64,000 nucleotides of DNA, from assembly GCF_023746535.1 (NCBI RefSeq), contig NZ_CP098747.1, positions 3,523,501 to 3,587,500 of the forward strand. The letters run 5' to 3'. The notes beneath the pieces are model-generated. The model did no database searches and was not told the DNA's origin. It was given only the letters and a program-made list of their open reading frames with translations. This stretch comes from Sneathiella marina. GTDB lineage: Bacteria > Pseudomonadota > Alphaproteobacteria > Sneathiellales > Sneathiellaceae. The position numbers and the translations under genes are program-made. Every line of letters starts with the position of its first letter. Positions within the stretch are counted from its first letter, which is position 1. Of the stretch, positions 3,908-22,381 are shown in pieces.

Positions 3908-4794
3908 TATTGCACCCCTTCCATTTTAGAAGATTTTTCGGGCCGGAAGCGCGACCACAGTTTCTGCGCAATTTCAGCGATACCGCCTGGGCTAAATCGC
4001 ATAACGACAAATAACAGCCCGCCATATACCAGTAGTTTGTAGTCATCAATAAACTGGAACCATTGCGGCAACAAGCTAAGGACAATTGCCGCGAAAACAA
4101 CTCCCCAGACAGAACCAATACCACCGATTACCACCATGGACAGGATCGAAATGCTTTCAATAAAACCAAAGCTATCCGGATCGATAAACCGGATATGATG
4201 TGCATAAAACGCCCCGGCAACGCCAGCAAGCGCTGTTCCCATGGCAAACGCAACCAGTTTGTAGCGGGAGACGTTGAGACCGAGAACCCGTGCCGTATCC
4301 TCATCCGCCGCAACAGCGTCAAAAACGAAGCCAAGCCACGATCGCTTTAAGTAGAGGCTATAGATAATTGTGAGGCCGGCGATCAAGAGCGTCAGCGCCA
4401 TAAAGGCGGTTTTACCAAGCCCTATATCCGGGATACCGGCAATCCCCATCTCACCTCCAACGAAATCCCATTGCCCGACAACTCCCAAAAACAGAAATCC
4501 TGCGCCCATGGTTGTGATCGCGAGAAAGTCATCTCGTACCCGAAGCGACGCAAGACCCACAATAAGACCGAACACGGTGCTCAGGACAGCGCCAGAGACG
4601 ACAGCAAAAGCAAAAGGATAACCTGCTTTGGTCATCAAGGCTGCGCAATAGGCGCCAATCCCGTAGAACGCAGCGTGCCCCAGGCTAATTTGACCGCAAA
4701 AGCCAGTGATAAGGTTCAAGCTAAGCGCGACTGTCACTGCAATTCCAACAGTCGTTAGCAGTGTGATTTCATAAGCACCCAATCCGAACATCAC
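3907..4794 (-). CDS. livM: Branched-chain amino acid type ABC permease LivM
   Basis: A 295-residue integral inner-membrane permease forming half of the Liv channel. It has about eight hydrophobic stretches and the LivM hallmark LNLITGFCGQISLGHAAFYG near residue 25, followed by the GIGAYCAALM helix. A second conserved block, SILSMVVIGGIGSVWG, lies near residue 240. The start overlaps the livH stop by 4 bases (ATGA) and its stop overlaps the livG start. The length is at the short end of LivM proteins (290-430), lacking the N-terminal extension of E. coli LivM. Heterodimer formation with LivH is known for the family. Confidence 0.93.
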   Translation of the reverse strand: MMFGLGAYEITLLTTVGIAVTVALSLNLITGFCGQISLGHAAFYGIGAYCAALMTKAGYPFAFAVVSGAVLSTVFGLIVGLASLRVRDDFLAITTMGAGFLFLGVVGQWDFVGGEMGIAGIPDIGLGKTAFMALTLLIAGLTIIYSLYLKRSWLGFVFDAVAADEDTARVLGLNVSRYKLVAFAMGTALAGVAGAFYAHHIRFIDPDSFGFIESISILSMVVIGGIGSVWGVVFAAIVLSLLPQWFQFIDDYKLLVYGGLLFVVMRFSPGGIAEIAQKLWSRFRPEKSSKMEGVQ

Positions 4795-18065: not shown

Positions 18066-19079
18066 ATGAGGACCACAAAGACGAAAAAGCTCCGTTTGCT
18101 TTTCCTCAGCATATTATTAAGTCAAGCCTTCGCAACCAGCATGTCTTTCGCCGATGTGCCCAATGTCATGAAATGCAGCCATCAGCTGCCTCCTGAGCAT
18201 CATATTTCGAAGGTCATCGACCAATGGGCGGCCGAGATCGAAGCATTGTCCGGAGAAGAAATTGACGTTCAGGTATTTGGTGGGAGTAGTTTGGAAACGC
18301 CCGAAAAAAATGCGAGCGCTGTTGCGACGGGTGGTTTCCAGTGCGGATTTACGCTAAACAGGCAGTGGGGCAATAAACTTCCATTAATGGACGTAACACT
18401 GGCTCCTTTTACCTTTGACCACCTAGATAAGCTAAAAAAATGGAATAGGTCTGAAACCGCTGCGGTTTTGGAGCGCAAACTTCTTTCCAAAGGGCTAAAA
18501 AATGTCATTTGGCTTTTCTCAAGCTGGCAAACGGTGCTTACTTCTGACGGAAAAGCGCTATCAAAACCCTCAGATTTCGAAGGAGCCAAAATCCAAGGAA
18601 TTAACCCCATAGCAGATGCCAGTCTACGCGCATTAGGAGCCATTCCCATAGATGTTCCTAATGGAAAAATGTTTGAAGCGCTAAAAGAAAAAGAAATTGA
18701 TATTGGGTTAGCCAGTTTCTCGTCGACTATCACTAACAAATACTTCTCTTTGCGAGATCAGGCTACCGTTCTGCCTCTTTATAGCCAAATATTCCATGGC
18801 TATGTCAATGCCGGCTGGTATGCAGACTTATCCGAAAAAAGTAAAAACGCGATTGTTGAGGCTGGGAATTCTGCAGCACTTTGGGCCATAGATGCTTCTG
18901 AAATTTCAGCTGCAGCAGCACCACAAATACTTAAAGAGAATGGTATGAAGGTTCACGCGGCTACAGATAGTGAAATAGCAAACCTAAAGATAAAAATGAA
19001 GCCAGCGTTTGCCACCTCATTTGAGGATGCAACAGGTGTTGAAGGTGTATCCCTTCTTAAGCTAATAAAAGACTTATAA
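18066..19079 (+). CDS. TRAP transporter solute-binding protein (DctP type), orphan
   Basis: A 337-residue periplasmic protein with a signal peptide ending near SMSFADV (about residue 30). The mature part starts with MKCSHQLPPEHHISKVIDQW and continues with the DctP pattern LSGEEIDVQVFGGSSLETPEKNASAVATGGFQ (only the outline given: LSGEEIDVQVFGGSSL). Further on, GAKIQGINP and LKEKEIDIGLASFS fit the DctP ligand-binding core with its conserved Arg replaced or shifted; the usual Arg in the R-x-P-x motif appears as GAKIQGINP, so carboxylate binding may be altered. No DctQ or DctM membrane gene is present in the window. It is convergent with the large SAM-cyclase-like protein gene, 38 bases apart. 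It may serve a distant TRAP channel or a signalling role. Confidence 0.82.
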   Translation: MRTTKTKKLRLLFLSILLSQAFATSMSFADVPNVMKCSHQLPPEHHISKVIDQWAAEIEALSGEEIDVQVFGGSSLETPEKNASAVATGGFQCGFTLNRQWGNKLPLMDVTLAPFTFDHLDKLKKWNRSETAAVLERKLLSKGLKNVIWLFSSWQTVLTSDGKALSKPSDFEGAKIQGINPIADASLRALGAIPIDVPNGKMFEALKEKEIDIGLASFSSTITNKYFSLRDQATVLPLYSQIFHGYVNAGWYADLSEKSKNAIVEAGNSAALWAIDASEISAAAAPQILKENGMKVHAATDSEIANLKIKMKPAFATSFEDATGVEGVSLLKLIKDL

Positions 19080-19117: not shown

Positions 19118-22100
19118 TTATGTCGCAAGCACATTGGACAGAAGGGCCGACATCGCCAACTGCCCGCAATCATCTGCATCAGCTTTTATTTCCTCGAGTC
19201 TTTGTACGTTCTTTGCATTTTTCCCGTTTACGCCGATATCAGCCAAAGAGCGTCCGACTTCAATGTAAAAATTTGACCATCCCAATGGTTCGCGAGCCGT
19301 GATTTTCTCCAATGCGTCAGCATAGCGGATAACCTCATGCCACTCCCCCTGCAGTGCACAGCTTTCTATGGCAAAAGCATAAAAGAAAAAGTAATTGTGA
19401 CTGATCACACTGGATTGTAAAATCCGGTTACCTTCATCCAGTGCCCAGCGGCGGTCCTTTTGCTCCGTTGCAATCTGAGCTGCAGCTCCGAGCGTCCAAG
19501 GACCCATAAAACCTTCACCCGTTTCACGGCAAATCTTGAAAGCCGTACGGCATGTCTCCATGGCCGCAGCTGGATCATTTTCAATATGGAATTGGTATCT
19601 TGCGTGACAGATCATCGAAGCGGGCTGGAAAAGAGCAGAGTCCATTTTCAATGTTGCCTCGCGGCTCTGTTCACCTTGAAGCTTCATCCCTTCAAAATCT
19701 CGCTGGCAAAACATAATCTCAAGCAAACACATATGGCCGATCAAGCCGGCGCGCTTATCGGAAGTCGCAACAGCCTTTTCAATTGCGTCCTTTGCCACCT
19801 TTACTGCTAAGTCAAGGTTATTCAAAAACAAAGCTGTCCAGGCGATCATCGGCATGTTGGCAACCGCGATACGTGTAAACTCGTGTTTTTCTGCTAATTC
19901 AACACATTGTTTGAAATACTGATGTGCGGTTTGCATGCGACCTGCACCATAGGACGCATCGCCTAATCCGCCTAAAGCCCGCGCCTCTCCCTCGAAGGAT
20001 CCAACTTCCTTCGCATATTGCAAAGAAATCTTGTGCTCTTCCATGCATTCTTTAATCATGCTTCTGGGAAAAAATATGTTCCCCCGCAAGAAGTGAATTT
20101 CAGCTAAAATCTCAATGAACCGATTTTTAAGTGCAATATTCTGAATTTTAGTAAGGCAGGTCAAGGCATCATCAGAACGATCGACAATTCTCAATGCTGT
20201 AGCCAAACCAACATGTGCTCGACAAAATTGCTCCTCGGTATCATATAACTCCAGTGCTTTTTCAAATGATTTTATCGATTTATCGATTTCACTCAGATGA
20301 CGACATAAATCGCCCTGCAGGTATCGAAGCTCAAATTTGATTGTATCATCAACCGACAATGCTAGTCCGCGTTCAACCAAGGATAAGGCCACGTCCGGCC
20401 GGAAAGCGCTCAGTTGCAGTTTGGCCGCTTCCAGATAGGCGTAAGCAGCTGTCGTATCTTCGGCTTTTTCAAGATGCTCCGCCCTTAGAACAGGATCTGC
20501 GTCCTGATAGAATGCGGCAGCTCTCTTATGAAACGCCAACTTTCTGGTTTCAATCAACGATGCATAAACACCTTCCCGGATTAAGGCATGGGAAAATTGA
20601 TATCCGGCAGGTGCAGGTTTTATCAATGCATTCTTTAGTAAATTTTCCGGATCGAAATCTGCAGCCTCAATTAGGGCTTCAATTGCGTCTATGGAGAACC
20701 GCTGCCCGAGAATTGATGCCGCCTGTAATGCTTCTCGATCTGGGGTTGTTAAGGTGTCCAATCGTGCCTGAACAATGCCCTGTATCGTCCCAGGTATTTG
20801 ATCTTTTTCGAGTTCATGGGCGTTACGCAGCAATTGATCAAGGTAAAGCGGATTTCCTTCAGCGCGTGCAATACAGGTTTGAATTAGTTGGTTGTTGAGA
20901 TTAGGAAATGCCTTTGCTATGCCTGCGGCTTCCTCTGGATTTAGCGGGGAAAGTTCAACTGTTGTAAATGATATTCCCTCGAGTTCCCTCGCTCGTGGTT
21001 TAGTGAAAGGATCCCCACTATTACGCGTCGTTAGAACCAGCAATACCGGACAATCCGCCAACACTTGGTAGATCTGCGCGACATGCGATAAAATTACTGG
21101 ATCAGCCCAATGAATATCCTCGATCTTCAGCATAAGAGGTTTCTTTTGTCCAATCGCCGCTATCATTTGAGCGACAGCTTCTTGCTTACCCAAATTGCGC
21201 GCTTCATTGTCCATCGCATCATAAGTACCTCCCAAATCTGCAGGCTGCGGCAAATTAAGGAGATCATTTAGGAAAACGCGCTGGGATTCATTGAGAATTC
21301 CTTGAGAAATTACACGCTCCAGCGCCTCTCGCCGCTCTTTCTTCCGACCGCCAGGAATAATCTCCAGTATGTTTCTAAGCAATGAGCGAATTGCGTCTTG
21401 CCCTTTTGCTGTCCCAAAATCAAGAACCAGGCCAGAATGGCAAGCAAATCCTTTTGTCTTTGCTAGTTTTCCAAATTCATCCGACAATCTTGTCTTGCCA
21501 ATGCCCGCTTCCCCTCGGATAAGAAATATCTGGCCAGACCTGTCTTCCGCGCATTGTTCCAGTGCAAGTGAAAATTGATGTAAGTAACGTCGACGCCCAA
21601 CAAAAGCGTACGGACTTGCGCCACGTAAGCTGGAAACGCGCCCCAATCGCCATACAGAAACCGAGCTCTTCAACCCGTTATGTATCTTTTCGCCGAGTAG
21701 CTCTCCGTGAAAACGGTCACCTAATGCGTTCTTGACGGCGGCTGATACAAGTGTCTGTTGAAACGTAGCGAGATCCGTCAGTCTTACAGCCAGATTCACG
21801 CTATCCCCTGTCACTGTATATGAAGCTTCCTTCTCATGCCCTGCAACGACCTGTCCCGAGGCAACTCCGATTTTGACTTTAAAGGCGGCTTTAAAAGCTG
21901 TCGCCCTACGGTGAATTTCAAGAGCGGCACGTAACGCTCTTTCAGGATCATCTGTATGCGCAACCGGTGCTCCGAAAACGATCATGGCAGCATTTCCAGC
22001 TCGGCTCTCGATTGTCCCCCCAAACTCTGCACCAATAGTTTCGACGCATTCGAAACAACTGTCGAGCATTTGAGAGGGCAGTTTTTCCGGACCTTGAGTG

Positions 22101-22381
22101 AGCGATAAATTGGCGTCGTCAATCTGCGTGTATAAAATTGTAACCTGTCGGTGAATGAGTTGCAGATCTGAAGGTCGCCCATTCCCCTCTTGCTGGAATG
22201 CAACATATTGGGCAATGGATGACATCATTTTTCGCCTGCTACCCAATGGCACGCCAAGCTCGGATAAATCACTATCCGTCAAGAATGGAAGTGCCGCCAT
22301 ATCAACCTCATTTTCCAAAAAGGCATCGATATGCTTTTCAAATCCTTCTTCATGCAGCCATCTGCGGATGTCGTCTGCCAT
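19118..22381 (-). CDS. SAM domain - degenerate class III cyclase - ATPase - TPR signalling protein
   Basis: This 1087-residue cytosolic protein has four parts. Residues 3-60 are a sterile alpha motif (WLHEEGFEKHIDAFLENEVD, then LGVPLGSRRKMM). Residues 77-235 resemble a class III nucleotide cyclase domain (HRQVTILYTQI, GGTIESRAGNAAMIVFGAP, VTGDSVNLAVRL). Residues 255-600 form an AAA/STAND-like ATPase with Walker A GEAGIGKTR near 290-298 and Walker B LMLKIEDIHWAD. The rest holds helical TPR-like repeats. In the cyclase domain both metal-binding Asp are replaced: Gln86 stands where VTVLFAD has Asp, and Asn130 where AGDG has Asp. Catalytic cyclase activity is therefore unlikely, although Asn196 and Arg200 (GDSVNLAVR) remain. 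It may be a nucleotide sensor or scaffold. Confidence 0.88.
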   Translation of the reverse strand: MADDIRRWLHEEGFEKHIDAFLENEVDMAALPFLTDSDLSELGVPLGSRRKMMSSIAQYVAFQQEGNGRPSDLQLIHRQVTILYTQIDDANLSLTQGPEKLPSQMLDSCFECVETIGAEFGGTIESRAGNAAMIVFGAPVAHTDDPERALRAALEIHRRATAFKAAFKVKIGVASGQVVAGHEKEASYTVTGDSVNLAVRLTDLATFQQTLVSAAVKNALGDRFHGELLGEKIHNGLKSSVSVWRLGRVSSLRGASPYAFVGRRRYLHQFSLALEQCAEDRSGQIFLIRGEAGIGKTRLSDEFGKLAKTKGFACHSGLVLDFGTAKGQDAIRSLLRNILEIIPGGRKKERREALERVISQGILNESQRVFLNDLLNLPQPADLGGTYDAMDNEARNLGKQEAVAQMIAAIGQKKPLMLKIEDIHWADPVILSHVAQIYQVLADCPVLLVLTTRNSGDPFTKPRARELEGISFTTVELSPLNPEEAAGIAKAFPNLNNQLIQTCIARAEGNPLYLDQLLRNAHELEKDQIPGTIQGIVQARLDTLTTPDREALQAASILGQRFSIDAIEALIEAADFDPENLLKNALIKPAPAGYQFSHALIREGVYASLIETRKLAFHKRAAAFYQDADPVLRAEHLEKAEDTTAAYAYLEAAKLQLSAFRPDVALSLVERGLALSVDDTIKFELRYLQGDLCRHLSEIDKSIKSFEKALELYDTEEQFCRAHVGLATALRIVDRSDDALTCLTKIQNIALKNRFIEILAEIHFLRGNIFFPRSMIKECMEEHKISLQYAKEVGSFEGEARALGGLGDASYGAGRMQTAHQYFKQCVELAEKHEFTRIAVANMPMIAWTALFLNNLDLAVKVAKDAIEKAVATSDKRAGLIGHMCLLEIMFCQRDFEGMKLQGEQSREATLKMDSALFQPASMICHARYQFHIENDPAAAMETCRTAFKICRETGEGFMGPWTLGAAAQIATEQKDRRWALDEGNRILQSSVISHNYFFFYAFAIESCALQGEWHEVIRYADALEKITAREPLGWSNFYIEVGRSLADIGVNGKNAKNVQRLEEIKADADDCGQLAMSALLSNVLAT

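Follow-up and report, generated by a model that had tools for sequence, protein, structure and literature searches.

A Sneathiella marina protein joining SAM, STAND ATPase and TPR regions to a class III cyclase-fold domain that lacks both metal aspartates

Domain architecture and genomic setting

The window, by which we mean the entire stretch of 64,000 nucleotides from Sneathiella marina that was analysed, contains an open reading frame with an ATG start and no internal stops, the product of which combines a class III cyclase-fold domain with a P-loop ATPase and flanking SAM and TPR regions (Table 1). Pfam profiles for SAM_1 (residues 3-58), Guanylate_cyc (77-231), AAA_16 (260-447) and TPR repeats all matched above their gathering scores, and Pfam detected no second cyclase domain within the 1087-residue protein. 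The SAM, cyclase, ATPase, winged-helix-like and TPR regions are likewise visible in a full-length AlphaFold2 model with a mean pLDDT of 84.9 and a pTM of 0.71.

Table 1. Positions, within the window, of the gene, its domains and individual residues, and of the segment that contains it
Feature	Coordinates	Strand	Basis
Whole gene, SAM - class III pseudo-cyclase - STAND ATPase - TPR, 1087 aa	19118..22381	-	Pfam, AlphaFold2
SAM domain, residues 3-58	22208..22375	-	Pfam SAM_1 E 2.8e-11; modelled helices 2-65
Class III cyclase-fold domain, residues 75-250, catalytic metal site lost	21632..22159	-	Guanylate_cyc E 2.9e-11; AlphaFold2
Gln86 (CAG) at first metal Asp position	22124..22126	-	Alignment to orthologues and PDB 2w01
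Ser126 (AGC) at conserved Lys of DKH.GD	22004..22006	-	Lys in 21/23 orthologues
Asn130 (AAT) at second metal Asp position	21992..21994	-	Alignment to orthologues and PDB 2w01
Asn196, transition-state Asn, kept	21794..21796	-	Orthologue alignment
Arg200, transition-state Arg, kept	21782..21784	-	Orthologue alignment
P-loop ATPase core, residues 259-460 (AAA_16)	21002..21607	-	Pfam E 2e-12
Walker A GEAGIGKT, residues 290-297, intact	21491..21514	-	Homologue alignments
Walker B LKIEDIHWAD, residues 418-427, intact	21101..21130	-	Homologue alignments
Helical / winged-helix-like part, residues 461-640; GNP (STAND GxP) 509-511	20462..21001	-	Alignment, model
TPR array, residues 641-1087	19121..20461	-	Pfam TPR models; full-length model
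DctP gene and pseudo-cyclase gene segment	17909..22528	.	Absent between same neighbours in sister species G021

The ATPase part carries both the Walker A and the Walker B motif expected of a STAND module. Across 35 sequences residues G290, G293, I294, G295, K296 and D422 are invariant, and the same holds for G509 and P511, which we take to be the STAND GxP motif, and for R453, presumably the sensor arginine. By sequence, the nearest solved relatives of the SAM domain in the PDB are the SAM domains of ANKS3, ANKS6, BICC1 and SHANK2, a likeness that may serve only as a hint of SAM-mediated polymerisation.

The immediate neighbours of the gene are an orphan TRAP substrate-binding gene, DctP (18066-19079), with which it lies tail to tail, and an enoyl-CoA hydratase gene. 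Together with DctP it makes up a segment of ~4.6 kb that is flanked in the window by the genes for an RND permease and the enoyl-CoA hydratase. In the sister species G021 these two flanking genes (80-82% and 78% identity, respectively) stand ~22 bp apart, with neither DctP nor the cyclase-fold gene between them. Relatives of the gene have no conserved neighbourhood that we could see, their neighbours being assorted metabolic genes (FAD oxidase, gamma-glutamyltranspeptidase, 2OG oxygenase, hydantoinase, glutamine synthetase, GST, SDR and MFS).

Erosion of the cyclase active site

In class III cyclases two aspartates hold the catalytic metals. The earlier note on this DNA had placed Gln86 and Asn130 at these two positions and had observed that the GDSVNLAVR region is kept; both readings are confirmed, the former by the agreement of homologue alignments with the solved cyclase Cya2 (PDB 2w01), a match that rules out misalignment, and the latter extends to the transition-state residues Asn196 and Arg200. 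Thr189 is also retained. Beyond what was described there, most of two conserved motifs has been lost, with F-A-D..T reading Y-T-Q..A and D-K-H.G-D reading ESRAGN, whereby Lys126 becomes Ser, and the hairpin preceding YTVTG is shorter by ~3 residues. At the codon level D86Q and K126S require at least two base changes each and the losses extend over 12 positions, which rules out sequencing error.

The domain retains the class III fold and the transition-state Asn and Arg of an active cyclase, and lacks its two metal aspartates and its substrate-specifying Lys. From what is established of class III chemistry, a homodimer of the domain would be unable to hold the two catalytic metals in the usual way and should not make cAMP or cGMP, and the alignments strongly support a loss of autonomous catalysis. 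Rv0386 offers no precedent for Gln and Asn at the metal sites, since its own Gln/Asn pair presumably occupies the substrate-specifying positions; E. coli CyaA, being a class I cyclase, is a poor comparator here.

Comparison with 23 orthologues indicates how far the changes are confined to this domain: near-invariant columns are altered at 12 of 46 positions in the cyclase and at 1 of 29 in the ATPase core, while the helical region that follows has 5 of 40 altered and the TPR array 5 of 39 (Fisher p 0.013). The conserved glycines and hydrophobic positions of the domain are retained along with the VNLA.R motif. In a leave-one-out control nearly all orthologues deviate at 0-3 of ~42 cyclase columns, the exceptions being L051 with 6 and L058 with 14. 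The latter (3955-4506) keeps both metal aspartates, yet 14 of 45 conserved cyclase columns are changed in it (with GD to KD, K to R and N to H); it is another eroded cyclase domain, reached by a different route.

Despite the loss of its site the domain is predicted with confidence to adopt the class III fold. A model of residues 68-248, built with AlphaFold2 from a 50-sequence alignment, has a mean pLDDT of 89.4, and VIA-align superposes it on Pseudomonas aeruginosa CyaB (3r5g) with a Z of 24.6 and an rmsd of 2.3 over 175 residues. The modelled strand 1 passes through Gln86 and ends at Asp88, just beyond which comes one of the least certain stretches of the model. The presence of Asp88 and Asp89 at the end of this strand, next to Gln86, together with the intact C-terminal half of the site, could be taken to mean that the protein is still a cyclase or some other nucleotide enzyme that works through displaced acidic residues or by a different chemistry. 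We hold this to be very improbable: there is no new acidic residue near Asn130, Glu125 occupies a position that usually bears Asp, the losses extend to Lys126 and to most of the F-A-D..T motif, and cyclases with the normal Asp, L055 and L013 among them, can also bear an Asp at +3.

Recurrent loss among relatives and origin of the gene

Orthologues with 33-46% identity are scattered among families of the same class and are also carried by plasmids or secondary replicons in Paraburkholderia, Caballeronia, Sinorhizobium and Rhizobium, the annotated replicon copies being mostly named adenylate/guanylate cyclase domain-containing proteins. The nearest full-length members, 42-46% identical over nearly all residues and alike in domain order, place the window protein in the SAM-cyclase-AAA_16-TPR family. 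Each of the 46 near-subfamily members keeps both metal aspartates, and so do the nearest among them, L084 and L053; this set was drawn up before L119 and L123 were added, both of which fall among the near subfamily on the tree. The nearest relatives have D/K/D where the window protein has Q/S/N, and a loss common to them is ruled out.

The wider family gives a different picture. On a tree inferred from residues 259-640 of 61 homologues, from which L052 (N/T) was excluded for gaps, six tips lack one or both aspartates: the window protein (Q/N), L035 (A/E), L036 (T/N), L119 (A/D), L120 (T/N) and L123 (A/N), the exact letters being uncertain for L119 and L120, which are very divergent in the cyclase region. 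Fitch parsimony requires six changes to explain these tips; as the homologues were collected by similarity to the window protein, 6 of 61 is no survey rate. A search for relatives with the same changes had been proposed as a check on the earlier reading, in which the loss was presented as a feature of one protein. Among the nearest relatives the metal-site loss is confined to this gene, but in the wider family losses of this kind have recurred independently. Walker A is intact in all six tips, and from this it appears that the ATPase part is kept without catalysis; the repeated loss also suggests that the synthesis of cyclic nucleotides is not the sole job of these proteins. Two of the tips, L123 on the Skermanella mucosa plasmid pSM-2 and L120 on a plasmid of Ruegeria sp. 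YS9, are annotated as BTAD proteins and have a degenerate cyclase-like region followed by an intact P-loop ATPase.

Among 40 orthologues placed on a fixed tree, the window protein has the longest terminal branch for the cyclase part (1.08) and ranks 10th for the ATPase part (0.44). Its cyclase branch amounts to 0.57 of that for the rest of the protein, the median being 0.23 (z = 2.6); the cyclase part evolved unusually fast on this one branch. The other 23 genomes of the genus, some of which are incomplete, yielded no orthologue, and the genomes searched no close one; on the trees the window sequence is nested among proteins of another family (f67). This absence from the genus, the grouping with another family and the missing segment in G021 together make horizontal acquisition probable. 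In the simplest account the segment was gained horizontally and the cyclase site eroded along the same long branch, be it before or after the transfer; deletion of the segment in the other species instead of a gain in the window lineage would be less economical.

An acquired gene whose cyclase output was useless in its new host might be expected to drift, and the domain could be at an early stage of decay under relaxed selection. The restriction of the gene to one of 24 genomes of the genus, the lack of the segment in the sister species and the acceleration of the cyclase branch are consistent with such a history, as is the sequence before the ATG, where a GGAGAG lies ~26 nt upstream and no well-placed ribosome-binding site was seen. 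Against it, the frame is intact across 1087 codons, the conserved glycine and hydrophobic positions and the VNLA.R motif have survived, the ATPase core is almost unchanged, and the independent losses elsewhere in the family likewise sit within long open frames. We regard decay as unlikely.

Probable function and comparison with known systems

The changes within the domain are unevenly distributed, affecting 10 of 22 near-invariant columns in residues 77-139, with the metal and Lys positions, and 2 of 24 in residues 140-235, with VNLA.R (Fisher p 0.005, for a split picked post hoc after inspection of the data). Of the two cyclase halves, C1 provides the metal aspartates and C2 the substrate- and transition-state residues (PMC4174876). 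A possibility absent from the earlier note is that the domain is a half-site comparable to mammalian C2, which would pair with a metal-bearing class III cyclase and supply Asn196 and Arg200 (and Thr189) to the one active site of the heterodimer. The C2 half of human soluble adenylyl cyclase, ADCY10, likewise has a cyclase fold without metal aspartates and with the Thr/Asn/Arg half-site kept; both comparisons with ADCY10 favor this half, phmmer aligning C2 (342-419) better than C1 and VIA-align selecting the C2 range 279-464. Metal-bearing partners do in principle exist, as both aspartates are kept in 18 of 18 other class III genes of this genome with a readable site; the genome has 21 matches to PF00211 in all. 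ADCY10, however, has its catalytic C1 partner in the same chain, whereas the window protein has no second cyclase domain, its gene has no cyclase neighbour, and the genome contains no paralogue from the SAM-cyclase-AAA_16-TPR family. Moreover, the base-contacting Lys that normally comes from the C2-type half is itself lost (Ser126), and the independently degenerate homologues share no single pattern, since L035 keeps Asn and Arg and L036 has lost the Asn. We consider it decidedly unlikely that the domain acts as such a half-site.

Two further class III loci of this genome may be recorded here. At G000:C1:899456-899984 (L011, L019) a cyclase gene is apparently split by a frameshift into open stretches of 172 and 137 aa, and at G000:C1:753151-754798 (L012, L014) adjacent genes carry two class III cyclase domains.

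The reading that we consider the most probable, and to which we give fair though not full confidence, is that of a STAND-type sensor in which a cyclase-fold pseudoenzyme has been kept for dimerisation or nucleotide-responsive coupling, with sensing by the TPRs, switching by the ATPase and association through the SAM domain. The union of the cyclase domain with a STAND-type ATPase (Walker A, Walker B and GxP intact), TPR repeats and an N-terminal SAM domain, as proposed in the earlier note, holds good. Of the allosteric or nucleotide-binding pseudo-cyclase proposed along with it the pseudo-cyclase part stands, with both metal aspartates and the base-contacting Lys gone and the fold kept in the model; the role in dimerisation or nucleotide-responsive coupling is one that we infer. 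The protein would be cytosolic, its TPR array sensing a ligand or partner, and its STAND module would change state with ADP/ATP. SAM contacts might assist self-association, the cyclase-fold domain would act as the dimerisation or coupling element, and output would occur via assembly or partner binding and not through a cyclic nucleotide.

It is conceivable, though we advance this only tentatively, that in SAM- or BTAD-cyclase-STAND-TPR proteins at large the cyclase fold also works, apart from catalysis, as a nucleotide-responsive dimer switch gating the ATPase, and that lineages repeatedly discard catalysis but retain this second function. If so, the window protein would be a clean example able to separate the two functions. 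Many bacterial proteins are annotated as adenylate/guanylate cyclases fused to STAND-type ATPases, and if catalysis has been lost repeatedly without loss of the ATPase, the cyclase annotation would mislead for such members; set beside relatives that are catalytically complete (such as L084, at 46% identity), the window protein would then offer a natural experiment on the non-catalytic role of the cyclase fold.

The SAM-cyclase-AAA_16-TPR architecture is widespread, alphaproteobacterial, Sinorhizobium, Rhizobium, Paraburkholderia and Caballeronia proteins matching the window protein in domain order and over their full length at 33-46% identity, and inactive cyclase domains are already known from bacteria. 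The closest analogue that we found in print is provided by the cNMP cyclase domains of vWA-MoxR conflict systems, which are described as catalytically inactive and for which a nucleotide-binding or dominant-negative role has been suggested (Kaur et al. 2020, PMC7159879); their architecture and genomic setting differ, the window protein having neither vWA nor MoxR. The mycobacterial Mclx proteins Rv0386, Rv1358 and Rv2488c have the order cyclase - AAA/NB-ARC - LuxR (PMC4452763), and so share the junction of a cyclase domain with an ATPase but end in a LuxR DNA-binding domain and have no SAM domain. Skermanella mucosa WP_202683271.1 and Ruegeria WP_171676462.1 resemble the window protein in having a cyclase-like region without metal aspartates ahead of an ATPase with intact Walker A; they differ in being annotated as BTAD-type putative transcriptional regulators rather than SAM proteins, and their losses are independent on the tree. 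Searches of an open-access library yielded no description of the exact architecture as a pseudo-cyclase. What is new here is the clean, domain-specific loss beside an intact ATPase, together with the evidence of its recurrence in the family.

Other assignments were considered and set aside. The TOMM_kin_cyc model (TIGR03903) scores 159.1 bits against a curated cut-off of 705.75, which places the protein outside that family. The match of the cyclase domain to Pycsar PycC is weak (34.4 bits), and the neighbours are DctP and enoyl-CoA hydratase and not an effector; PADLOC gave no convincing match to an anti-phage system. Among the 50 matches listed by VIA-align for the full-length model, almost all were to cyclase and TPR structures. 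At the level of fold only, the modelled TPR array superposes on the Rap/NprR peptide-pheromone sensors with Z of 23-28 at ~10% identity, as for Phi3T Rap (Z 27.6, rmsd 4.7 over 342 residues, 10% identity).
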